A stretch of 64,000 nucleotides of DNA from Streptacidiphilus melanogenes (GTDB taxonomy: Bacteria; Actinomycetota; Actinomycetes; Streptomycetales; Streptomycetaceae), in contig NZ_BBPP01000009.1 in assembly GCF_000787835.1 (NCBI RefSeq), positions 151,005-215,004 on the forward strand, in the 5' to 3' direction. How positions within the stretch are numbered: the stretch's first letter is position 1; each line of letters starts with the position of its first letter. Below, one piece after another: positions 42,762 through 55,371 of this stretch. The notes beneath the pieces are model-generated. The model was not told where the DNA came from, searched no databases, and saw only the letters and a program-made list of their open reading frames with translations. The translations under genes and the position numbers were made by a program.

Positions 42762-42885
42762 GCTCTGTCCGCTGATCGGACGACATGCGGGATCGGCGGC
42801 ATGCGTCCGCCCTCCGGGCCGGGTCTAATGACGGGAACAGCGGCGAGGAGCGGAGGCAGGCGATGGGTGACAGAGGCGTGACGTC

Positions 42886-44382
42886 ATGAGCGGGACCTCC
42901 GCCAGGAAGACGGCGGCGGCCGCCCGCAAGCGGACCACCCCCGTCAAGCGGGCCGCCTCCGCCAAGAAGACCGCGTCGCCCCAGCCGCGGCCGCACCTGA
43001 CTCCGGCTCAGCGCGCCGAGCTGGGCCTGCGGGCGCGGGCCAAGGCGCCGCTCACGGAACACGAGCAGTTCGGCGTCGGCTCCGGCCGGGAGGATCCGGT
43101 GGCGATCCTGGAGCGCCAGGCCGAGTCGCGTGTGCAGGAGCTCGTGCCGGTGCGCTACGGCCGGATGCTGGTGTCCCCGTTCACCTTCTACCGCGGCGCC
43201 GCCGCGGTCATGGCCGCGGACCTCGCCGGAACGCCGGACTCAGGCCTCACCGCCCAGCTGTGCGGCGACGCCCATCTGTCGAACTTCGGGCTCTTCGCCT
43301 CCCCGGAGCGGCGCCTGATGTTCGACGTCAACGACTTCGACGAGACCTACCCGGGGCCGTGGGAGTGGGACGTCAAGCGGCTGGCGGCCAGTCTGGAGAT
43401 CGCCGGGCGGGAGAACTCCTTCTCCCGCAAGGAGCGCCGGAAGATCGTGGTGGCGGCGGTCCGCGGCTACCAGAAGGCCATGGCCGGTTTCGCCGGCCTG
43501 GGCAACCTCGACGTCTGGTATGCGAGCGCCGATCTCGAGGAGGTACGCGGCATGCTCGCCGCGCACCTGAACAAGACCCGCAAGAGCATGCTCAAGAAGG
43601 GCGTGGCCAAGGCACGCGCGCACGACAGCCTGCGCGCCTTCCGCAAGCTCACCGAGACGGTCGACGGGCGTCCGCGGATCATCGCCGACCCGCCGCTGAT
43701 CGTGCCGGTCGCCGACCTGCTGTCCGGGCAACAGCGGGGCGCCTTCCACGAGATCATGGAGTCGCTGGTCGGGCGGTACCGGTCCACCCTGCAGTCGGAC
43801 CGCCGAGTGCTGATGGAGTCCTTCCAGCTGGTCGACGTGGCGCGCAAGGTGGTCGGGGTCGGCAGCGTGGGGACGCGCTGCTGGATCATCCTGTTCACCG
43901 GGCGCGACTCGGACGACCCGTTGTTCCTGCAGGTCAAGGAGGCCCAGCGCTCTGTGCTGGCGGACTTCGTCGCCAAGGGCCCCGGCTACGCGAACGAAGG
44001 CGAACGGGTCGTCAGCGGCCAGCGGCTGATGCAGGCCGCGAGCGACATCTTCCTCGGATGGGAGTCGGCGGACGGGATCGACGGTCGGCGCCGGGACTTC
44101 TACGTCCGCCAACTCGCCGACTGGAAGGGCTCCGTGGCCATCGAGCAGTTGGTGCCGAGCGGGCTGGCCATCTACGGGCGGCTGTGCGGCTGGACTCTGG
44201 CCCGCGCGCACGCCCGCTCCGGCGACCCGATCGCCATCGCCTCGTACCTGGGCGACGACAAGGTCTTCGCCCAGGCGATCGCCGAGTTCTCGACCCTGTA
44301 CGCCGACCAGAACGAGCTGGACTTCGCGGCGCTCCAGCAGGCCGACCGCGAGAACCGGATCACCGTCGAGTTCGGGCTCTAG
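42886..44382 (+). CDS. DUF2252 domain protein
   Basis: The 498-residue protein starts with a Lys/Ala-rich basic tail (residues 5-35) and then has the DUF2252 core: PFTFYRGAAAVMAADLAGTP, CGDAHLSNFGLFASPERRLM, FDVNDFDETYPGPWEWDVKR. The GDAH..N and NDFDE segments resemble the catalytic loop and metal-binding motif of aminoglycoside phosphotransferase-like kinases, so a kinase-like reaction is possible but unproven. The family is common in actinobacteria and has no known function. The aquaporin gene begins 30 bases after the stop, so the two are likely co-transcribed. Confidence 0.85.
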   Translation: MSGTSARKTAAAARKRTTPVKRAASAKKTASPQPRPHLTPAQRAELGLRARAKAPLTEHEQFGVGSGREDPVAILERQAESRVQELVPVRYGRMLVSPFTFYRGAAAVMAADLAGTPDSGLTAQLCGDAHLSNFGLFASPERRLMFDVNDFDETYPGPWEWDVKRLAASLEIAGRENSFSRKERRKIVVAAVRGYQKAMAGFAGLGNLDVWYASADLEEVRGMLAAHLNKTRKSMLKKGVAKARAHDSLRAFRKLTETVDGRPRIIADPPLIVPVADLLSGQQRGAFHEIMESLVGRYRSTLQSDRRVLMESFQLVDVARKVVGVGSVGTRCWIILFTGRDSDDPLFLQVKEAQRSVLADFVAKGPGYANEGERVVSGQRLMQAASDIFLGWESADGIDGRRRDFYVRQLADWKGSVAIEQLVPSGLAIYGRLCGWTLARAHARSGDPIAIASYLGDDKVFAQAIAEFSTLYADQNELDFAALQQADRENRITVEFGL

Positions 44383-44412
44383 CCTCCCCCGTCCCAGCCA
44401 AGAGGGGGCACC

Positions 44413-45261
44413 ATGACCGAGCAACCACCGCCGCCACGACCGGAGCCGGAGCCGCAGGCCGCCCGCGTGCTGGGCCCGATCGCGCGCTACGAGCAGAGCG
44501 TCCTGACGCGCATCCAGGACTTCCAGGATCCGCACCAGGAGTGGCGACGGCTCTTCGCCGAGCTGTTCGGCACCTTTCTGCTGGTGCTGGTGGCCGCCGG
44601 CGGCGGGATGATGGGCCGGGCCTTCCCCGGCGCGATCAGCAACTCCGCAGCGGTCGCCTCCCCCGGCCTCATGGTCATGGCGATCATCCTGGCCATGGGC
44701 AAGGTCTCCGGCGCCCATCTGAACCCGGCGGTGAGCGTCGCCTTCGCCCTGCGTCAGGACTTCCCGTGGCGGCGCGTGCCCGGCTATGTGGCGGTGCAGC
44801 TCGTCGGCGCCACGCTCGCGGCGCTGTTCCTGCGCGCGGTGGTCGACGTGTCGGCCCGCTACGGGGCCAACCATCCCGCGCACGGCTACTCCGCCGTGGC
44901 CGCCTTCTGGATGGAGCTGGCGCTGACCACGGGCCTGGTGAGCGTCATCCTGGGCACCGCCTCCGGAGCGCAGAACGTGGGCATCGTCGGCGCCTTCGGC
45001 GTCGGCGGGTACATCGCGCTGGCGGGGCTGTGGGGCTTCCCGCTCTCGGGCGCGTCCATGAACCCCGCCCGCACCTTCGGCCCCGACCTGGTCGCGACCA
45101 CCTTCACCGACTACTGGGTCTACGTGGCCGGGCCGCTGGCCGGCGCCGCCCTCGCCGTTGTCCTGGCCTACGTGCTGCGCGGCGGGGGCGGCGGCGCCTC
45201 AGGCGCCGCCGCCGCCCAGGGAGACCTCTTCACCGACGTGCACGACCCCGGCAAGCCGTGA
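44413..45261 (+). CDS. Aquaporin-family channel (MIP)
   Basis: The 282-residue protein has six helices and two half-helices with the NPA motifs (HLNPAVS at 102-108 and SMNPARTFGPD at 215-225). An unusual N-terminal cytoplasmic extension of about 45 Pro/Glu-rich residues precedes the first helix (WRRLFAELFGTFLLVL). The selectivity-filter Arg after the second NPA is present (NPAR). It should pass water, glycerol or another small neutral solute. AGAGGGGGCACC precedes the ATG. It follows a DUF2252 gene and ends in a hairpin shared with the convergent gene at 45271. Confidence 0.92.
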   Translation: MTEQPPPPRPEPEPQAARVLGPIARYEQSVLTRIQDFQDPHQEWRRLFAELFGTFLLVLVAAGGGMMGRAFPGAISNSAAVASPGLMVMAIILAMGKVSGAHLNPAVSVAFALRQDFPWRRVPGYVAVQLVGATLAALFLRAVVDVSARYGANHPAHGYSAVAAFWMELALTTGLVSVILGTASGAQNVGIVGAFGVGGYIALAGLWGFPLSGASMNPARTFGPDLVATTFTDYWVYVAGPLAGAALAVVLAYVLRGGGGGASGAAAAQGDLFTDVHDPGKP

Positions 45262-45276
45262 GGTCCTGCCTCACGG
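45256..45276. terminator. Hairpin spanning the ends of two convergent genes
   Basis: CCGTGAGG-TCCTG-CCTCACGG is a perfect 8-bp stem with a 5-base loop. It begins within the last codons of the aquaporin gene and ends within those of the SUMF1-like gene, only 9 bases apart. A shared terminator in such a short gap is economical. Confidence 0.6.
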
Positions 45277-46569
45277 CGAACACGGTGTCAGGTCGCCGAC
45301 GACCCCGATCCGCATGCCCAGCCACGGGTAGGTGTGGCTGAAGAACACGTTGTCCTGGGGTTGGAGTCCGACCGCCGAGGGCCACATCTGGTAGGCCGAC
45401 GCGTTGGAGATCCCGCCGTGCAGCCTCCGCCACACCCGCACCGAGCTGCTTCCGAGCGGGGGCGGCGTGATCGTGTCGGTCCACTCGACGGCGTTGCCGC
45501 CCTGGTCGAAGGTGCCCCACGGCGAGGTTGAGCGCGCCTGGCCGACCGTGCTGAGGCTGCCCTGGTAGAGCGCGGCGTACGCGATCGGGTCCAGCCCCAG
45601 CGGGTTGACCGTCGCGCAGTCCGCGCGCGAGACCTCGCCGGGGCACCAGCTCGGCGCCGGCTGGCCGTCGGCGTGGTAGGAGGCCAGCGGCTGGGTCGAC
45701 CCGTTGGTGACGTGGCCCGTCAGCGGGTTGAGGACCGTGGAGTGGGGCGCGGTCGCGTCCCCGTCGCCGAAGACGCCGGGATTCGTCGGGTACTTCCAGT
45801 AGTCGTAGGTGCCGCCCCCGCGGGGGTCGTAGTAGGCCGCCTTGATCCACTCGTCCTGGCTCGGCACCACGAACCCGGTGTTGTGCGCCCGGACGGCCTT
45901 CGGGTCGGCCATGTCGTACATGCCGGTCTCGGTACGCGGCGAGAGCTGGACGCGGTAGCTGACGTACCGGAAGTCGCCGCTCTGGCTGGTGCTCTTGGAG
46001 ATCACGCGCCCGTTGTAGAGGGAGTTGACGAAGCGCGCGGCCCGCAGGAACGTCGCGAAGCCGTAAGGCTTGTCGGCCCACTCGGGAAAGGCCACCGAGT
46101 AGTGCCGGCCGGGCCGGGCGCCCGCGGAGAAGTTGATCTGCCCGTACTTCGGCCACGCGGACGAGCTCTCCGTGTCGTCGTAGAGCCCGTGCGGATCGCT
46201 GCCGGTCGGGTCGGCGGTGTTCAGGAACGCCACCCACTGGTCGACCGTGACCTCGTACTCGCCGATCTGATAGGGCTTGGCGACACCGCCGACCATCAGA
46301 CAGCCCCGCGCGCCCGACGGTGCGTCAGCGCACGAGCGGTAGACCGCGTCCGTGAACGGGACGACGCCGACCGCCCGGTTCCCCGGCGCCCCGACCTCGG
46401 CGGTCGTCACGGTGATGACCGCGCCCGCGCCGCCTGCCACGTCCGGCGAGGAGGGCGCGGCGGCGGCGAACGAACCGCCCGCGAGGCAGGGAGCGAGTAC
46501 GGCGGCCGTGCCGCACGCCGCCGCCATCAGGGCCCTGGTACGAGAGAGACGTCCGGAAACGAACCGCAT
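45271..46569 (-). CDS. Exported SUMF1/FGE-sulfatase-like protein
   Basis: The 432-residue protein has a long signal peptide (residues 1-40; SRTRALMAAACGTAAVLAP) and an FGE-sulfatase/SUMF1 fold. Its marks are YQIGEYEVTVDQWVAFLN, FRYVSYRV, VVPSQDEWIKAAYYDPRGGG, WGTFDQGGNAVEWTD and RRLHGGISNASAY. The C-terminal part lacks the paired cysteines that catalyse formylglycine formation in FGE, so it is probably a carbohydrate- or substrate-binding relative. AAGGGTG lies before the ATG at 46569. It is a lone gene, convergent with aquaporin and separated by 150 bases from the GH16 gene. Confidence 0.85.
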   Translation of the reverse strand: MRFVSGRLSRTRALMAAACGTAAVLAPCLAGGSFAAAAPSSPDVAGGAGAVITVTTAEVGAPGNRAVGVVPFTDAVYRSCADAPSGARGCLMVGGVAKPYQIGEYEVTVDQWVAFLNTADPTGSDPHGLYDDTESSSAWPKYGQINFSAGARPGRHYSVAFPEWADKPYGFATFLRAARFVNSLYNGRVISKSTSQSGDFRYVSYRVQLSPRTETGMYDMADPKAVRAHNTGFVVPSQDEWIKAAYYDPRGGGTYDYWKYPTNPGVFGDGDATAPHSTVLNPLTGHVTNGSTQPLASYHADGQPAPSWCPGEVSRADCATVNPLGLDPIAYAALYQGSLSTVGQARSTSPWGTFDQGGNAVEWTDTITPPPLGSSSVRVWRRLHGGISNASAYQMWPSAVGLQPQDNVFFSHTYPWLGMRIGVVGDLTPCSP

Positions 46570-46722
46570 GAGCACACCCTTGGGATCGACCATCACCATT
46601 CGTGTGCACAACGTAAACGGGGCCGATCCTTCCGCAGTCACCGGCACGCGCGAGGGTCAGCCGGGTGGCGGCAGCCTGCGGCGGACGCGGCACAAGCCGG
46701 ACACGCCGTCGGTGTCGGTGCG

Positions 46723-47595
46723 TCAGTGCTGCCAGACCCGCACCCAGTTCACGACCATCTGTCCCGAGTCGACGTCGGCCGGGGGTGCCTGGGGGTAGCC
46801 GACGGCGAGGGTCAGCAGCACCTCCATCGGCGTGTCGGGGATCACCTTGGGGTTGGTGATCCGGAAGCGCTGGACGCCGTCGATGTACCAGGTCAGCGAG
46901 GACGGTTCCCAGTCGACGGCGTAGGTGTGGAAGCCGCTGGTGAAGTCCCGCGGTCCGAACTGCGTGTACTGGGCCAGGTCGGTCTGGTTGGGGCCGGGGT
47001 AGTGCAGCGTCATCCGGACCGTGCGCGCGTCGCCGAACTGTTCGGCGATGTCGATCTCGGGTGGGACGAACCGGGTCTGCGGCATCATCCAGAACGCGGG
47101 GAACATGCCCGGCTCCGCGGGGAACCGGATCGAGGCCTCGACGTAACCGTACGTCAGCGTGAAGCGCGGGGTCGCGTACCAGTTGCTGCGGCCCGTGGAG
47201 ACCATGCCGGACGTCCAGGGGTAGGTGTGTCCGTCGGTGCCCTTGACGGTCTTCCGCCCGGCGGTCAGGGTCAGCGAGCCGTCGGCGACGGTGGCCTGGC
47301 CGGGCTGGTACCACTCGAGTTCGTGGTTGGCCTCGTTGGTGCAGCCGTTCTGGTTCCAGTCGTAGCAGGTGGTCCAGCGTGAGGTGTCCAGCGACGAGCC
47401 CTGGAACTCGTCGGAGAAGGCCAGATGCCAGTTCCCGGGGGCGGCCGGGGGCGTGGCGGGCGCCGGGTCGGTGAGCCCGGCCGTGGTGCGGGACGGCGAC
47501 GAGGTGCACGCGGCCAGGAGCAGGGCCGCGGCGAGCGCGAGGGCCGAGGCCCCCTTCCAGGTCGGCGCCCTGCGGGAGCCGGCCTTCCAGGGCAC
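46723..47595 (-). CDS. GH16 endo-glycanase lipoprotein
   Basis: The 290-residue protein has a basic N-terminus, a hydrophobic core and the lipobox LLAACTS (Cys about 30), so it is a membrane-anchored exported lipoprotein. The GH16 fold follows (FSDEFQGSSLDTSRWTT) with the catalytic block EIDIAE at 180-185, the two Glu and Asp of the family. WHLAFSDEF and FWMMPQTR are further matches. It probably cleaves a beta-glucan or galactan. The GTG at 47595 begins 2 bases after the stop of the upstream flavoprotein gene, so both are in one operon, and the pair is divergent from the glycan genes starting at 49091. It may trim or release that glycan. Confidence 0.92.
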   Translation of the reverse strand: MPWKAGSRRAPTWKGASALALAAALLLAACTSSPSRTTAGLTDPAPATPPAAPGNWHLAFSDEFQGSSLDTSRWTTCYDWNQNGCTNEANHELEWYQPGQATVADGSLTLTAGRKTVKGTDGHTYPWTSGMVSTGRSNWYATPRFTLTYGYVEASIRFPAEPGMFPAFWMMPQTRFVPPEIDIAEQFGDARTVRMTLHYPGPNQTDLAQYTQFGPRDFTSGFHTYAVDWEPSSLTWYIDGVQRFRITNPKVIPDTPMEVLLTLAVGYPQAPPADVDSGQMVVNWVRVWQH

Positions 47596-47597
47596 GG

Positions 47598-48803
47598 TCA
47601 GGCCCCGTTCCCGGCCGCGATGGCGCTGCTGATCCGCCGGGCGGTGAAGCCGGTTCCGGCGACGAAGCGCATCAGCGGTCCGAAGCTGTCGGCGGCCGAG
47701 AGCCCCGTGAAGTACAGGTCGGGAACCGAGGACTGGAAGTTCCGGTCCAGCCGGGGCGACCCCGAGGGGCTGCGGCGCAGCGCACCGCGCACCGCGCCGT
47801 CGAGCTCCGGGATGCGGTCCACGTCCACCCGGTAGCCGGTCGCGGTCAGGACGTGATCGGCTTCCAGCACCTCCGGCGCACCGTTCAGGCGCAGCCGGAG
47901 GACGCCGTCGGCGGACTCCACGGCTTGCACGGACTGCCCGAGCAGCACCGGGAACCGGCCTTCGACGCGGTCGCGCAGCCACCACGCGCCCGACGGCCCG
48001 AGAACGGTGCGCACCAGGTGCTCCCTGGTCGGGTCGGGCAGGTGCCGGAAGGCCGCGGGGACGCGGCTGAAGGCCAGGTGGGACCAGCCGGGGCCGAGGA
48101 CCGTGCCCGGCTTGGCCGCGCGGACCGGCAGCGGCCGGTCCTGGCAGCGGTCGCTGGTGGGGGGAACGGCGAACAGCAGGCTCGCGCACCGGGCGATCAC
48201 GGTCGGGTGCGCACGGCTCTCGTGGAGCAGGGCGGCGCTCTCCAGCGCCGACTGCCCGGCTCCGATCACCGCGACACGCCGGTCGGCGAAGCAGGACAGG
48301 TCGGCGTGGGCGGAGGGATGCGAGGCGAGCCCCTGGCCCACCAGGTCGGCGAGCTCCGGTGGCACGCGGGCGAAGGGCTGCAAGCCGGTCGCCACGACCA
48401 CGGCACGGGCCTCCAGCTCCTCCCCGGTGTCCAGGGTGACCGAGAACCCGCCGCCGCCGTCGGCGGCGGCGACCCGGGTCACCCGCGAGGTCTCGAGCTC
48501 GGGAACGAGGTTCTGCTGGAACCACTCGCCGTACTCGATGAACTCGGCGATGTCGATCGGATGCAGGTCCCCGCCCGGCGGTACTCCGCGCGCCCTGCGG
48601 AAGGCCCACAGGCTGCCGCGGCCCGCAGGGTCGGAGATGGAGGACGCGGAGGGCGTGGACTTGAGGAACATTCCCTTCGGCATCCGCAGCCGCCAGCTGT
48701 CCATCGGCTGGCCGAAGACCCGCAGGGGCACCTCTCGGGCGCTCAGGTGAGCCGCCGCCGCCAGGCCGTAGGGCCCCGCGCCAATGATGACTACTGGTCT
48801 CAT
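47598..48803 (-). CDS. Flavin-dependent NAD(P)-binding oxidoreductase (monooxygenase-like)
   Basis: The 401-residue protein has an FAD motif at the start (VVIIGAGPYGLAAAAHLSA), a second nucleotide motif in the middle (RRVAVIGAGQSALESAALLH) and the ATG-like loop VVATGLQPFARVP. MFLKSTPSASSISDPAGRGS and the C-terminal LYFTGLSAADSFGPLMRF also occur in FMO-like lysine/ornithine hydroxylase relatives. It oxidises an unknown substrate with NAD(P)H and oxygen. GGAGGAG lies just before the ATG. Being co-transcribed with a GH16 lipoprotein and divergent from a glycosyltransferase cluster, it may modify the glycan or a precursor; this is inference. Confidence 0.88.
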   Translation of the reverse strand: MRPVVIIGAGPYGLAAAAHLSAREVPLRVFGQPMDSWRLRMPKGMFLKSTPSASSISDPAGRGSLWAFRRARGVPPGGDLHPIDIAEFIEYGEWFQQNLVPELETSRVTRVAAADGGGGFSVTLDTGEELEARAVVVATGLQPFARVPPELADLVGQGLASHPSAHADLSCFADRRVAVIGAGQSALESAALLHESRAHPTVIARCASLLFAVPPTSDRCQDRPLPVRAAKPGTVLGPGWSHLAFSRVPAAFRHLPDPTREHLVRTVLGPSGAWWLRDRVEGRFPVLLGQSVQAVESADGVLRLRLNGAPEVLEADHVLTATGYRVDVDRIPELDGAVRGALRRSPSGSPRLDRNFQSSVPDLYFTGLSAADSFGPLMRFVAGTGFTARRISSAIAAGNGA

Positions 48804-49090
48804 AGCGCTCCTCCGGCCCGTGTTCGCGCTCACGCCGACGCCTGCGGCCGGTCGCGCCCGGCAGCGGGTGCCGGCGCCTTCGCCACGGATCCGCCCGCCT
48901 GCGGGTGAGGGGACGGTCGCAGCCGTCCAGACATCCAGAATGCGTCGCAATCCCGGCCGCGGCATCCGGTCACCGTCACCCCATGTCCCGGATGGGTGTT
49001 TCATTGGTATATGTCCGCTCCGAGCTTCGTGCTGTGCGCCGGGACCAGAGGCCCGTGCGCCGGGAGTCACCGCCCAGGGGGAGGTCGGAC

Positions 49091-50392
49091 ATGACGCCGC
49101 CCACCCAGCCCACGGCCACGACCGGGTCAGTCGACGGCGAGGAAGAGCCTGCGGGGGCGCCGGTTCACGTCCTCGAACTGGATCTCGCCGTCCCCGGATC
49201 CCTGCGCTTCCCCGGGGAGACCGAACCGCGCTCCCCCCAGGGACGCCTCCAGGTGCTCGTGCGCCTGCACGGGCATCCGGTCGGCTGGGTCCGCGCAACG
49301 GCGAACGGGGACGATCCGGACACGCTGTACGAGTCGCTGGCCGAGTCCGCCCGCAAGGTCCTGTCCGTCCCCGCGCGGCCTCCGCGGGCACCCGAGACCC
49401 GGCCCTCGGAGCAGGGGCCCCTGGTCAGCGTCATCGTCTGCACCCGGGACCGGACCGCGATGCTTCCCGCCTGCCTGGACTCCCTGCTGCGCCTCTCCTA
49501 CCCCCGGCTCGAGATCCTGCTCGTCGACAACGCGCCCTCGGACGACACCACACGGGAGTTGGTCCTGACGCGCTACGGCGACCGGATCCGGTACCTGCGC
49601 GAGCCTGCGCCGGGTCTCTCCTGGGCGCGCAACTGCGGGCTCGCGGAGGCGCGGGGGGAGATCTGCGCGTTCACCGACGACGACGTCATCGTGGACGACG
49701 AGTGGATCAGCGCCCTGACGGACGTCTTCGAGGCCGACCACCGCGTCGCCTGCGTGACCGGGTTCATCGCCCCGGCCGAGCTGGACACCGAGGCGCAGCT
49801 GGTGATCGAGGCGTACGCGCCCGCGGGGCGCGGATTCGCCCCGCAGACGTGGTCGCTGCGCGGCGCGCAGGAGGACCCGATGGTCCAGTTCTCGGCGGGC
49901 CGCTTCGGCTGCGGGGCCAACATGGCGTTCCGGACCGAGGTGCTCCGCGGGTTCCGCGGCTTCGACCGCGCGACCGGCACCGGCAGCCCCGCCCGCGGTG
50001 GTGAGGACCTGCTGGCCTTCCAGCAGGTCCTCACCGCGGGCCACACGATCGCCTACCAGCCCGACGCCGTCGTCTGGCACCGCCACCGGCGCAGCATGGA
50101 CGCGCTCGTGCGGCAGGTCGGGGGTTTCGGCATCGGCTTCAGCGCCTACCTGACCGCCGCGGTGGTCCGCCGGCCCCGGCTGCTGCTGGTGCTGCTGCGC
50201 CGGCTCCCCACCGGCGCGTGGCGCTGGCACCAGGCCAGCCAGGGGCGGGCGCAGGCGGCCGCCTCCGGCTACCAGGAGATCTTCCGTCTGCTCAAGCGGC
50301 GCGAGCGGCGCGGCTTCCTGCTGGGACCGATCTGCTACCTGGAGAGCGTCCGCAGGCAGCGCAGCGTCGCCCGGGCGGGAGGCCGCGAGTGA
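49091..50392 (+). CDS. Family 2 glycosyltransferase
   Basis: The 433-residue protein has an N-terminal extension of about 105 residues (VHVLELDLAVPGSLRFPGET and LQVLVRLHGHPVGWVRATAN). A GT2 (GT-A) domain follows: LVSVIVCTRDRTAMLPACLD, VDNAPSDDTTRE, and ICAFTDDDVIVDDEW with the DDD metal/UDP-sugar motif at 196-198. RGGEDLLAFQQVLTAGH holds the catalytic ED. It transfers a sugar onto a lipid- or protein-linked glycan, probably from the cytoplasmic side. GGGAGGTC precedes the ATG. It is the first of four plus-strand genes. Confidence 0.9.
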   Translation: MTPPTQPTATTGSVDGEEEPAGAPVHVLELDLAVPGSLRFPGETEPRSPQGRLQVLVRLHGHPVGWVRATANGDDPDTLYESLAESARKVLSVPARPPRAPETRPSEQGPLVSVIVCTRDRTAMLPACLDSLLRLSYPRLEILLVDNAPSDDTTRELVLTRYGDRIRYLREPAPGLSWARNCGLAEARGEICAFTDDDVIVDDEWISALTDVFEADHRVACVTGFIAPAELDTEAQLVIEAYAPAGRGFAPQTWSLRGAQEDPMVQFSAGRFGCGANMAFRTEVLRGFRGFDRATGTGSPARGGEDLLAFQQVLTAGHTIAYQPDAVVWHRHRRSMDALVRQVGGFGIGFSAYLTAAVVRRPRLLLVLLRRLPTGAWRWHQASQGRAQAAASGYQEIFRLLKRRERRGFLLGPICYLESVRRQRSVARAGGRE

Positions 50393-50476
50393 TGCGCAGG
50401 GCCGGGCCACCGGTGCCCCAGACCGCCCGCCGCAAGGCCGGGGCCGCACCACGGCCCGGGCCGGAGCGCTGATGCC

Positions 50477-51976
50477 ATGGCTCCGGACCGCGACCCCCGA
50501 CCCCCGACACCCCCGAACGACGGGGGAACGGGGTCGTCTCCGCTGGGGGCCGCGGACGCGAGGACCGGAGCCCGTGCGCCCACCCACCGAGCCCGGCTCC
50601 GCCACCGGCTCGGAGCCTCCCGAAAGCGCTCGCGCGGCGAGCAACTGCTGCGCAACGGACACATCCTGGCGGCCAGCGCGGTGGTCTCCGCGGGTCTCGG
50701 ATCGCTGTTCTGGATGCTGGCGACCCGTCACTACGACGCGGCGACGGTCGGACGCTACTCGGCGGTGCTGGCGGCGGCCACGTTCCTGTCCACGCTCGGC
50801 AGTCTGAACCTCGGCGACGCCCTGATCCGCTTCGTGCCCACCGCGGGCGCCGGGACCAGGCGCCTGGTGGTCCGCTGGTACGCCATCAGCGCGGTGTGCA
50901 GCGCGCTGGCGGCCGTGCTGTTCCTGCTGCTGATCCCCGTCGTCAGTCCCAAGCTGGACTTCCTGCGCACACCCGGTCTGGCGGCCTCCTTCATCGCCGC
51001 CACCGCCGGGTACTCCATCTTCGTCCTCCAGGACGGCGCGCTGACCGGGGTGCGCCGGACCGGATGGGTCCTCGGCGAGAACACCGTCTTCGCCGTGGCC
51101 AAGGCCGCGTTCCTCGCCGTGTGCATCGCGCTGGACCTGGCGACCGGCATCCTGGTCTCCTGGGCCGCCGCGATGGTGGTGTCGATCGTCCTGACCAACG
51201 TCGTCCTGTTCCGCTGGGCCGTGCCCGCGGCCCCGCGCGAGGCGCCCGCCCGCACCCCGCCACGGGAGCGCAGGACCCGCTGGGCGGCGGCCGACTACGT
51301 GGGCAACCTGTTCAGCTTCGCCACCTCCGCCGTGCTGCCGCTGATGGTCCTCAACCGCGTCGGCGCACAGGACAACGCGTACTACTCTCTGGCCTACGTG
51401 ATCGCCTCGACGCTCTACGTCGCGGCGTTCAGCATGGGCTCCTCCCTGGTGGTCGAGGGCGCGCGGGCCCCCGAACGGCTGGCCGAGCACGCCTACCGGC
51501 TGCTGCGCCACTCCGGCATGCTGCTGGCGGCCGCGGCGGGGGTCATCGTGATCGTCGCTCCCTGGGCGCTGCGACTGTTCGGACCTGAGTACGCCGCGCA
51601 CGGCACCACCGTGCTGCGCCTGATGGCGCTGTCCGCCGTCCCCAACGTCGTGGTCAACGTCGCGATCCAGGTGGCACGCGTGCGGCAGTCACTGCTGTGG
51701 ATGATCCTGGTCAGGGCGGCTGTCGCGGTCCTCGTCATCGGACTGACGGCCGCGCTGCTGCCGCCCTTCGGCCTCGTGGGGGTCGGGGTCGCCTGGCTGG
51801 CGACCGAATGCGCCCTGGCACTCCCCCTGCTGGCGCTGCTGCGGGCCTGGCTCTCGCCACGCCACGCGCAGGCGGGCGCGGCGGGCGGCACCAGCCCTTC
51901 GGCCGTGCCGACCGGCATGAAGCACAGATCTGCTCGCCTGCTCGCCAGGCGGGCGGGCGACGGGCCTTCGACCTAG
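50477..51976 (+). CDS. Oligosaccharide flippase (MOP/Wzx-like)
   Basis: The 499-residue protein has an N-terminal cytosolic tail of about 55 residues and about 12 membrane helices. The first contains HILAASAVVSAGLGSLFWML and later ones ALPLLALLRAW. The VGRYSAVLAAATFLSTLGSL and VLPLMVLNRVGAQDNAYYSL motifs are the pattern of the MATE/Wzx flippase superfamily. It should flip a lipid-linked sugar across the membrane. GGAGCG lies upstream of the ATG at 50477. A 27-residue frame in the 84 bases before it has no protein features. It is likely co-transcribed with the GT2 gene. Confidence 0.9.
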   Translation: MAPDRDPRPPTPPNDGGTGSSPLGAADARTGARAPTHRARLRHRLGASRKRSRGEQLLRNGHILAASAVVSAGLGSLFWMLATRHYDAATVGRYSAVLAAATFLSTLGSLNLGDALIRFVPTAGAGTRRLVVRWYAISAVCSALAAVLFLLLIPVVSPKLDFLRTPGLAASFIAATAGYSIFVLQDGALTGVRRTGWVLGENTVFAVAKAAFLAVCIALDLATGILVSWAAAMVVSIVLTNVVLFRWAVPAAPREAPARTPPRERRTRWAAADYVGNLFSFATSAVLPLMVLNRVGAQDNAYYSLAYVIASTLYVAAFSMGSSLVVEGARAPERLAEHAYRLLRHSGMLLAAAAGVIVIVAPWALRLFGPEYAAHGTTVLRLMALSAVPNVVVNVAIQVARVRQSLLWMILVRAAVAVLVIGLTAALLPPFGLVGVGVAWLATECALALPLLALLRAWLSPRHAQAGAAGGTSPSAVPTGMKHRSARLLARRAGDGPST

Positions 51977-52008
51977 GGTGGCCATGACGCTTCCGGAGGG
52001 TTTTGTCC

Positions 52009-53982
52009 ATGCACGGCGTTGAGCAGCCGGAGCCCCGGGCGTCGGACCGCCGACGCCGGCCCGCAGGAGGTGGCCGGGGCGACCTTCCCCCCGCTCGCCG
52101 TGCCTCCCTTCGGCCCGACGCGGCCCTGGTCGCACGCGCCGCGCCGGTGCTGGCCGTGGTCCTGTGGCTGCTCTCGCTCCGTCACGTCGACCTCGCGGGC
52201 ATGAGGGACCTCGGACTGCTGCAGGTGCTCCCCTGGACCTACTGGGCGGCTGCGGCCGTCCTGACGATCGGCTTCGTGTGCGCCGTCCGCGACCGGCGGA
52301 TCACCCAGCGATGGCTCGCCGGATACGTCATCGTCCTCATCGCGATCATCCATGCGACCCCCACCCTGCTGTACCCGACGCTGCGCTACTCGTGGGCCTG
52401 GAAGCACGTCGCCATCATCGACGCCCTGCTGCGCTACGGCTGGCCCGTGCCCCGCGCCGGGGACCTGAGCATCTACAACCAGTGGCCGGGGTTCTTCGCG
52501 GCCAACGCCGCGTTCCTGCGGGTCACCGGGATCCATTCGGCGCTGTCCTACGCCTCCTGGGCCCCGCCGGTGTTCAACGCGCTGCTGCTGATCCCGCTGC
52601 TGCTGCTCTACCGCAGCGTCACCACCGACCGCACCCTGGTCTGGGGCGGGGTGTGGATCTACTACTGCGCGTCCTGGGTCGGCCAGGACTACTTCGCCCC
52701 GCAGGCCACGGCCTTCGTGCTGTACGTCGCGGTGCTGGCGCTGGTCTTCCGCCGCCTGCCGTTCCACGGCACGCACCGAGCCCGCGTGCGCCACCGGTGG
52801 TGGCACGCGCTCGTGGCCGGGGAGAGCCCTGTGCCGGCACCCGGGAGCCGGTCGGAGCGGCGCGGGCGCAGGGCGACGGTGCTCTGGTTCGTGCTCGTGG
52901 TGGCGGCCGAGGCCGCGATCATCGTGGTGCACCCGCTCACCCCGCTCATGCTCATCAGCGCCCTGCTGCTGCTCTGCCTTCCGCGCAGGAACCGCAGGGT
53001 CGTCCTGCCGGTGTTCCTGGCCGCAGTCGCCCTCACGCTGCTCTGGGACGCGACCGTGGCCCGCCCGTACATCTCGGCGAACCTGGGCAGCTTCATCCAG
53101 GCGCTCACCACGCCCGACGCGAACGCCACCTCGGGCCTGGCCAACACCGGCACGGCGGCGGCCGGGCAGGTCCTGGTGGACTGGGTGGACCGGCTGCTGA
53201 CGGCCGGAGTCCTGCTGTTGGCCGTCCTCGGCACGGCACGCCGCCCCTGGGCGCGCCGCAGCGGCATGCCGCTGCTCCTGCTCTCGCCCTTCCTGCTGGT
53301 GCTCGTCAACAGCTACGGCGGGGAGATCCTCTTCCGCGTCTACCTGTTCGCGCTGCCCGCCGCCGCGTTCCTCGCCTCGGCCCTGCTGTTCGGTCCCCGG
53401 CCCGAGCGGGCGGGCCGGGCCCCGGCCCCGGGCGCAGCCCCGGACGCGGTCCCGGCTCCGAGCGCGGTCCCGAGAGGTCGCACCCGGGAGCGGCTGCACA
53501 CGCTCACGGTCGGCGTGATCCTGCTCGGCCTGCTCGGCGGGCTGTTCTTCGCCTACGACAGCAAGGAGGCGATGAACTACTTCACCCCCCAGGAGGTCGC
53601 CGCCTCCCAGTTCCTCACCAGCCGACCGGCCGGGTCGACCCTGGTGGCGGTGACGGGATCGGTGCCCGGCATCGAGGAGAACTACCCCGACCACACCGAG
53701 ATCGTCATGGCCAACACGAACCCCAGCATCAAGAAGCTCTTCACCCTCGATCCCGTCGCCGGAGTGAACGAGGCGGTCGCCGAGGCCGCCCCGAACACCC
53801 CCGCGTATCTGATCGTCAGCCGCGCCCAGGCAGCCGAGTGCCTGCTGACCGGCGTGTTCCCGGTGGACACGATCTCCAGGCTGCGGGCGGACGCGACACA
53901 GGCGTCCGGGTACACGCTCGTGTACCAGAACGCCGACGCGGAGGTGTTCCGGTTCACCGTGATCACCGGCGCCCGCCCCTGA
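52009..53982 (+). CDS. Large multi-span membrane protein, GT-C glycosyltransferase-like
   Basis: The 657-residue protein has about 11-12 helices from residue 40 on and a C-terminal extracytoplasmic domain from about 505 (YFTPQEVAASQFLTSRPAGS; TVITGARP at the end). The region at about residues 115-175 (YSWAWKHVAIIDALLRYGWP, IYNQWPGFFAANAAFLRVTG) resembles the outer loop of GT-C enzymes such as GT39/GT83. These use lipid-linked sugars outside the membrane. Which sugar is not visible. GGAGGG precedes the ATG. It follows the flippase by 32 bases, so it probably acts after the flip. Confidence 0.82.
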   Translation: MHGVEQPEPRASDRRRRPAGGGRGDLPPARRASLRPDAALVARAAPVLAVVLWLLSLRHVDLAGMRDLGLLQVLPWTYWAAAAVLTIGFVCAVRDRRITQRWLAGYVIVLIAIIHATPTLLYPTLRYSWAWKHVAIIDALLRYGWPVPRAGDLSIYNQWPGFFAANAAFLRVTGIHSALSYASWAPPVFNALLLIPLLLLYRSVTTDRTLVWGGVWIYYCASWVGQDYFAPQATAFVLYVAVLALVFRRLPFHGTHRARVRHRWWHALVAGESPVPAPGSRSERRGRRATVLWFVLVVAAEAAIIVVHPLTPLMLISALLLLCLPRRNRRVVLPVFLAAVALTLLWDATVARPYISANLGSFIQALTTPDANATSGLANTGTAAAGQVLVDWVDRLLTAGVLLLAVLGTARRPWARRSGMPLLLLSPFLLVLVNSYGGEILFRVYLFALPAAAFLASALLFGPRPERAGRAPAPGAAPDAVPAPSAVPRGRTRERLHTLTVGVILLGLLGGLFFAYDSKEAMNYFTPQEVAASQFLTSRPAGSTLVAVTGSVPGIEENYPDHTEIVMANTNPSIKKLFTLDPVAGVNEAVAEAAPNTPAYLIVSRAQAAECLLTGVFPVDTISRLRADATQASGYTLVYQNADAEVFRFTVITGARP

Positions 53983-54081
53983 CGGCCGTGAGCCGGGCGC
54001 CTCACACCCCCGGGCGGTCCGGGAAGCCCCTCGGCGGGGCCGCACCCATACTGGGACCAGGAGCGGAAGGAGGCCGCAGCC

Positions 54082-55371
54082 ATGTACGTCAGGCCCGCCC
54101 CCGCCGGCACCGGCCGCCGCGGATCCTCCGCCCAGCCCGCGCTGGACCGCCGGACCCCCGCTCTGTTGGTGAAGATCGGCCACTACCCCGAACACCACGG
54201 CGGACTCGGCGTGGTGCGCACCCTCGGACGGGCCGGCGTGCCCGTCCACGCGGTGGTGGAACACCCCCTGACGCCGACGTCGCTCTCCCGCTACCTGACC
54301 CGGCGCTTCGTGTGGCCCACCAGCGGTCTGGAGAGCCCCGACGCGCTGGTGGAGAGCCTGCGTGCCATCGGTCGGGCGATCGGCAGGCCGTGCGTCCCGG
54401 TCCCCACCGACGACGAGGCCGCGGTGCTGCTGGCCGAGCACGCGGACGAGCTCGCGGAGTACTTCGTCCTCCCGCCCGTCCCTGCGGGCCTGCCACGCCA
54501 ACTGGCCAGCAAGGCGGATCTGTACACGCTCTGCCGCCGGCACGGCGTCTCCACGCCGCGCGCCTGCTCGCCCACGAGCCTGGAGGAACTCCTGGACTGC
54601 GGCCGACGCTGGGGCTTCCCCCTGGTCCTCAAGAACCGCGAGGCATGGAGCAGGCTCTCCCGGCCCGCGGTCGGCGGCACCACCGTCGTGCCCGACCAGG
54701 CCGCCCTGCGAGCCCTGATGGGGTCGCGCGCGGAACGGCCCGTCTTCGCACAGGAGTACCTCCCGCCGCAGTACTGCGAGGACTGGATCACCCACCTCTG
54801 CTGCGGGCCGGGGGGCGAACCCCTGGTGGTCTTCACGGGGCTCAAGCTCCGCTCCTGGCCTCCCGAGGCCGGTGTGACCACCCGGGCCTGCTCGCTGCCC
54901 AACCCCGAACTCGCCACCATGGCCACCGACCTGTGCCGCAAGATCGGCTTCAGCGGCGTGGCCGACCTGGACTGGCGACTGGACCGGCGCGACCGCCAGT
55001 ACAAGCTCGTCGACTTCAACCCCAGGACCGGGGCGCAGTTCCGCCTGTTCGAGACCGAGTCCGGCCTCGACGTCGTCCGCGCCCTGCACATGTCGCTCAC
55101 CGGGCGGACCCCGCCGGACGGTCGGCAACTCGTCCGGGACTACGCGGTCGGCAACCTGGACTCCGCCTCCGTGGCCGCCTGGATCTGGCAGCACCGGAAG
55201 CTGCCGCGCAACGTCCGCCCGAGCGCGTCCACCGAGCGCGCCTGGATCGCCCCGGACGACCCGGCCCCTGCGCTCGTCGAACTGGGCTGGTTCGCGGGGA
55301 CGGTGACCCGGCGTCTGAAGACCGCCGCCGGCAGCCGGGTGGGACGGGGCGGGCCCCGCTCCGTGTCGTAG
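54082..55371 (+). CDS. ATP-grasp family ligase
   Basis: The 429-residue protein has the ATP-grasp fold: RQLASKADLYTLCRRHGVST (start of the ATP-grasp domain), FPLVLKNREAW with the ATP-binding lysine, VFAQEYLPPQ, and the metal/ATP site VDFNPRTGAQFRLFETESG. Such ligases join an acid to an amine through an acyl phosphate. Relatives include carboxylate-amine ligases of peptide and polysaccharide-modification pathways. Being the last gene of a glycosyltransferase, flippase and GT-C run, it might attach an amino acid or amine to the glycan. AGGAGG lies upstream. Substrate unknown. Confidence 0.88.
   Translation: MYVRPAPAGTGRRGSSAQPALDRRTPALLVKIGHYPEHHGGLGVVRTLGRAGVPVHAVVEHPLTPTSLSRYLTRRFVWPTSGLESPDALVESLRAIGRAIGRPCVPVPTDDEAAVLLAEHADELAEYFVLPPVPAGLPRQLASKADLYTLCRRHGVSTPRACSPTSLEELLDCGRRWGFPLVLKNREAWSRLSRPAVGGTTVVPDQAALRALMGSRAERPVFAQEYLPPQYCEDWITHLCCGPGGEPLVVFTGLKLRSWPPEAGVTTRACSLPNPELATMATDLCRKIGFSGVADLDWRLDRRDRQYKLVDFNPRTGAQFRLFETESGLDVVRALHMSLTGRTPPDGRQLVRDYAVGNLDSASVAAWIWQHRKLPRNVRPSASTERAWIAPDDPAPALVELGWFAGTVTRRLKTAAGSRVGRGGPRSVS

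Follow-up and report, generated by a model that had tools for sequence, protein, structure and literature searches.

Six genes at positions 46723-55371 of a 64,000-nucleotide stretch of the Streptacidiphilus melanogenes genome (contig NZ_BBPP01000009.1, positions 151,005 to 215,004; the whole stretch is hereafter called the window) probably form part of a conserved surface-polysaccharide assembly system of the Streptomycetaceae, a reading to which we assign a probability of about 0.6. Judging from the sequences, the glycan of this system would be assembled while bound to a lipid carrier and then flipped; a GT-C membrane protein would transfer it, a GH16 glycanase would trim it, and a flavoprotein paired with an ATP-grasp ligase would tailor it. 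All six open reading frames (ORFs) were confirmed in their coordinates, order, and strands, their motifs are apparently intact, and the region runs exactly from the stop of the GH16 gene to the stop of the ATP-grasp gene. The initial annotation had described a GT2, a flippase, a GT-C protein, and an ATP-grasp ligase in this order on the plus strand, divergent from a flavoprotein and a GH16 lipoprotein, and this layout was borne out by the gene calls, Pfam matches, and structure models. The features are as follows:

46723..47595, minus strand: GH16 glycanase lipoprotein (Pfam Glyco_hydro_16, 3.7e-24; lipobox LLAAC and catalytic EIDIAE from the translation)
47598..48803, minus strand: FAD/NAD(P) oxidoreductase of the N-hydroxylating/flavin-monooxygenase type (Pyr_redox_2 and Lys_Orn_oxgnase; GGAGGAG precedes the ATG at 48803)
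48804..49090, no strand: divergent intergenic region of 287 bp between the flavoprotein and GT2 genes, a putative shared regulatory region (from gene coordinates)
49091..50392, plus strand: GT2 glycosyltransferase with an N-terminal extension of about 100 residues (Glycos_transf_2, 2.7e-27; GGGGGAGG precedes the ATG at 49091)
50477..51976, plus strand: MOP/PST-type flippase (Polysacc_synt, PF01943, 1.7e-9)
52009..53982, plus strand: predicted GT-C membrane transferase (AlphaFold model and Foldseek; signature QDYF[SA]PQ and YGGE...R)
54082..55371, plus strand: predicted ATP-grasp ligase (alignment of 31 relatives; model and Foldseek; weak CPSase_L_D2, PRK12767-like)

The two minus-strand genes are separated by 2 bp, and the gaps on the plus strand are 84 bp (GT2 to flippase), 32 bp (flippase to GT-C), and 99 bp (GT-C to ATP-grasp). 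The six ORFs are not a product of chance because they are kept in relatives, with approximately 45-63% identity in the nearest locus type.

Gene content and predicted folds

Clear Pfam matches were obtained for four of the six genes (GH16, flavoprotein, GT2, and flippase); the match of the ATP-grasp protein was weak (CPSase_L_D2, 0.0014), and the GT-C protein had none. The GH16 protein has both the domain match and the catalytic ExDxxE motif of its family, and its best relatives among solved structures are endo-beta-1,3-glucanases/laminarinases. The flavoprotein matched Pyr_redox_2 (6e-19) and Lys_Orn_oxgnase (3.9e-13), and its family keeps the GAGPYGL (FAD), GAGQSALES (NADPH), and ATGY motifs without an invariant Cys or a redox CxxC; one relative (L047) was excluded from this comparison because of an internal stop in its reading. 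Its best phmmer match among solved structures was KtzI (2.9e-8), an ornithine N-hydroxylase. The FAD motif, the GxGQSA NADPH motif, and the ATGY motif are shared with N-hydroxylating flavin monooxygenases of the KtzI and MbtG type, but the window flavoprotein profile is at least as close to flavin monooxygenase (FMO)- and FNR/TrxR-type enzymes, which ranked first in the profile search. The match of the GT2 to MftF was partial and below the cutoff. The flippase is of the MOP/PST (Wzx) type that the Wzx/Wzy pathway requires. Within the six-gene block there was no candidate for a Wzy polymerase (Wzy_C/O-antigen ligase family), and neither an initiating phosphoglycosyltransferase nor Wzz was found by Pfam among the six genes.

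The membrane protein is predicted to have a GT-C transferase fold, since its model (predicted local distance difference test, pLDDT, 86.5) matched OST, ArnT, AftA, and AftB in Foldseek with E values from 2e-6 to 2e-3. A convincing Pfam match was obtained for 0/24 relatives of this protein, a Wzy_C match likewise for 0/24, and a sequence search of the protein against solved structures did not find a relative. Since Pfam offers no model for these GT-C proteins, the locus also delimits a transferase family that is still unnamed. In several genomes, the GT-C protein and GT2b, a second GT2, occur as one open frame of approximately 980-1020 amino acids and are apparently fused (L039/L054, L045/L056, L041/L059).

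The ligase is likewise predicted to have the ATP-grasp fold, its model (pLDDT 90.5) matching biotin carboxylase, PylC, and RizA in Foldseek. The ATP/Mg site is intact, with K144, K184, D311, N313, and R315 invariant in the alignment of 31 relatives. Thus, the fold of the superfamily, the two ATP-site lysines, and the acidic/Asn metal site are all present in the model and alignment.

Co-conservation and the flavoprotein-ligase pair

Relatives were fetched with the ATP-grasp protein from the same genus, Streptomyces, Kitasatospora, metagenome-assembled genomes (MAGs) of actinomycetes, Bradyrhizobium, and one MAG of Thermoleophilia. The full set comprises nine genes, encoding a DPM-like GT2, GT2, flippase, GT2b, polysaccharide deacetylase, GH16, GT-C, flavoprotein, and ATP-grasp protein, and it was found in Streptomyces and Streptacidiphilus; the Kitasatospora locus lacks flippase and GH16 matches. 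By comparing 34 ATP-grasp loci, a deacetylase was found within 10 kb in 29, the flavoprotein in 28, GT-C in 27, a flippase in 25, and GH16 in 12. Among 121 Streptomycetaceae genomes, the ligase occurs in 58, the flavoprotein in 57, and both in 55 (Fisher p ~4e-28, uncorrected for relatedness, so the value overstates the association, because the genomes are related). In these genomes, the flavoprotein lies within 8 kb of the ligase at 61 of 71 places, and GT-C within 15 kb at 32 of 71. For the 18 best ligase matches, the corresponding proportions are 16/18 for the flavoprotein and 17/18 for GT-C. The co-conservation of the gene set in other genomes, which the initial annotation had named beforehand as a check, was therefore found when the check was run. 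Pairwise distances of the partners correlate with those of the ligase (r 0.94 for the flavoprotein, 0.93 for GT-C, 0.92 for the flippase, 0.92 for GT2, and 0.76 for GH16), and shared species history contributes to these correlations. Moreover, the window ligase belongs to a fully supported clade of 15 rows, whose other 14 members are all in this locus type. In one locus (L049 in G013), the ligase, flippase, and GT2 matches were in broken pieces, and this locus is either decaying or misassembled.

The linkage of flavoprotein and ligase is genuine, and the pair is a putative tailoring module. The source genome has no more than two flavoprotein matches at E<=1e-10, and both share their locus with an ATP-grasp gene, of which the genome likewise has two. 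The pair also occurs in other locus types. In Bradyrhizobium it is found in a locus with Wzy, Wzz, and WecG, and the pair of Bradyrhizobium barranii is accompanied by a sugar transferase and AsnB. A Mesorhizobium plasmid carries the pair (flavoprotein 41%) with relatives of GH16, GT2b (46%), and the DPM-like GT2 (47%); its ligase is distant (26% in the pairwise alignment; profile comparison E 6e-20), and a neighboring 659-amino-acid protein was rejected as a GT-C relative (not significant, probability 2%). A distant pair in Streptomyces G019 (L064 4652-11020) lies in an exopolysaccharide (EPS) locus with Wzy, MurJ, a deacetylase, GT4, and GNAT, which adjoins chaplin and three rodlin-like genes (rodlins recognized by eye). 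In the Thermoleophilia MAG (L033 6785-10354), the ligase relative sits in a Wzx/Wzy-type locus with a deacetylase and abuts genes for a phosphosulfolactate synthase and phosphatase (ComA-/ComB-like, sulfolactate synthesis), which also abut a methyltransferase gene. A distant ligase relative on a Priestia megaterium plasmid (L095 1503-11860) is accompanied by a PIG-L deacetylase, GT4, and a kinase among spore-coat/exosporium genes. The deacetylase and sulfolactate-gene neighbors of the ligase relatives suggest that a freed sugar amine may be acylated by a small carboxylic acid. The ligase and oxidase had initially been called unusual, hinting at amide-linked or oxidized decoration; the linked pair fits a decoration role, but the two are not one-offs, being a recurring two-gene module that extends to other locus types and another phylum.

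The gene set is real, widespread, and testable. Roughly half the Streptomycetaceae genomes in the sample encode the ATP-grasp family, and its flavoprotein partner accompanies it into several types of surface-polysaccharide locus. If the pair tailors a glycan of the spore or hypha coat, this would be an actinomycete surface modification without a description in the literature searched; the search terms (ATP-grasp with exopolysaccharide, COG3919, cell wall glycopolymer, chaplin/rodlin, and sulfolactate) returned no description of the gene set.

Proposed route and alternative explanations

We infer a route of six steps, including its carrier, the step order, the site of deacetylase action, the substrates, and the amide or oxidation chemistry. 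Inside the cell, undecaprenyl phosphate would be loaded with sugars, and these extended, by a DPM-like GT2 and further GT2s, the DPM-like and second GT2 being encoded outside the window. A deacetylase, also encoded outside the window, would then free an amine on an N-acetyl sugar. The flavoprotein may oxidize this sugar amine or an incoming acid, and the ATP-grasp enzyme would make an amide there. The flippase would turn the lipid-linked glycan outward, GT-C would transfer it to a growing polymer or wall acceptor, and the GH16 lipoprotein would finally trim the polymer. A more specific version is highly improbable in our estimate: the flavoprotein would N-hydroxylate the glycan amine that deacetylation exposes, and acylation of this amine by the ATP-grasp enzyme would give a hydroxamate-bearing, iron-binding, siderophore-like surface polymer by a module common to Actinomycetota and rhizobia.

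The main rival explanation, which we regard as rather unlikely, is that the ligase joins a uronic acid carboxylate to an amine made or activated by the flavoprotein, as in the capsule of Campylobacter jejuni. In the HS:2 capsule locus, Cj1438C, which contains an ATP-grasp domain, is reported to amidate the carboxylate of glucuronic acid (GlcA) (PMC11800379). Furthermore, judging by sequence, the two genes that directly follow the ligase in Streptomyces G019 may encode a nucleotide-sugar 6-dehydrogenase and an NAD-dependent epimerase. However, a uronic-acid dehydrogenase is absent from the window set, deacetylases recur near the ligase in most loci, and Cj1438C is a TupA-like ATP-grasp protein, whereas the window family is of the carboxylase/CPSase type by predicted fold and sequence.

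Several observations weigh against the proposed system. The flavoprotein is absent within 8 kb at 10 of the 71 ligase places, and some pairs lie away from polysaccharide genes (in L063, the neighbors are antiporter, RecQ, and FAA hydrolase genes). The aspartate usual in the GT-C loop varies among the relatives (D67 in 16/24). No other locus showed the six genes arranged as in the window, where 5.3 kb separate the flavoprotein from the ligase, compared with <=1.5 kb at 59/71 ligase places; the window copy could therefore be a rearranged remnant.

Missing from the window block are the DPM-like GT2, GT2b, and polysaccharide deacetylase. They occur instead at about C99:23.5-28 kb on the same contig, at a distance of approximately 175 kb, in a block that has an interspersed GT2 and a GH16 gene following the three but is without a flippase, GT-C, flavoprotein, or ligase match. 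The two blocks thus look complementary, but as each contains GT2 and GH16, the simple division of a single locus does not account for them. In the sister genomes G002 and G007, one locus combines the DPM-like GT2, GT2, GT2b, deacetylase, GH16, GT-C, and flippase but contains neither the flavoprotein nor the ligase; two GNAT-type (FemAB-like) acyltransferase genes adjoin it in G002. Gene content suggests that the flippase and GT-C of the ancestral block were lost in the source genome and could be supplied by the window block. The surface-polymer route proposed in the initial annotation accordingly stands as a co-conserved surface-glycan gene set, but not as a complete one, with the DPM-like GT2, second GT2, and deacetylase elsewhere in the genome. 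The DPM-like GT2, a putative polyprenyl-phosphate sugar synthase, is absent from the window and present in the loci of relatives, at C99:~24 kb, and on C107; one query, used solely to locate DPM-like genes, was a hybrid in which some 50 residues came from L070 and all others from G019.

It is unlikely, in our view, that rearrangement has left the window cluster as a relic which no longer works as a unit, its work being done by a second cluster on C107. This cluster, near cobalamin-type genes, contains the flavoprotein, ligase, DPM-like GT2, GT2b, deacetylase, flippase, and GT-C. Three of nine genes are missing from the window, the gene order is unlike that of any fetched relative, and decay is seen in relatives, the ligase of G013 being in pieces. 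Nevertheless, none of the six window ORFs is truncated, their motifs are intact, and the missing three, at C99:~24 kb, are in a block without the flippase and GT-C, both of which are present in the window. Finally, it is very unlikely that the pair makes up a small-molecule pathway which only happens to reside in glycan loci, because, despite stand-alone pairs at L063 and L083 and the resemblance of the flavoprotein to siderophore-type N-hydroxylases, most examined places are in polysaccharide loci of several designs in two phyla.

Known systems and neighboring genes

The assembly system proposed here is of a known kind, a surface polysaccharide with ATP-grasp decoration, and it differs in this flavoprotein, the Pfam-less GT-C family, and the split organization. 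Like the C. jejuni HS:2 locus, in which Cj1438C reportedly forms an amide on a sugar, it combines an ATP-grasp gene with GT2s in a surface-polysaccharide locus; unlike the window protein, Cj1438C is fused to a GT2, and a flavoprotein partner is not mentioned in the portion of that source consulted (PMC11800379). The imp and wps clusters of Actinoplanes missouriensis, which are responsible for the sporangium-matrix polysaccharide and needed for sporangium formation (PMC12691653, PMC13390465), similarly combine glycosyltransferases, a polysaccharide flippase, and a membrane protein (Alg6/Alg8-like or O-antigen-ligase-like). However, an ATP-grasp protein, an N-hydroxylating monooxygenase (NMO)-type flavoprotein, or GH16 is not reported for them, and imp is mainly GT4; these clusters were checked as a candidate for the same system and rejected, as the gene content differs. 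Three-component extracellular glycosylation by GT-A, flippase, and GT-C also shares the DPM-like GT2, flippase, and GT-C; in contrast to those systems with their GtrA flippase, the flippase here is of the MOP type, extra GT2s, a deacetylase, and the tailoring pair are added, and the DPM-like gene is outside the window block.

Directly after GH16, on the same strand, the window encodes a SUMF1-like secreted protein (45271-46599; weak FGE-sulfatase domain). This gene was rejected as a seventh cluster member because it has no relative in homologous clusters. An explanation by a mobile element was looked for, and both a tRNA and a GC shift were absent from the window. A block with DUF2252 and aquaporin genes at 42877-45265 of the window is approximately 88% identical to G002 and G007, and this similarity stops sharply at 45265, which suggests that the glycan cluster region lies beyond a breakpoint.

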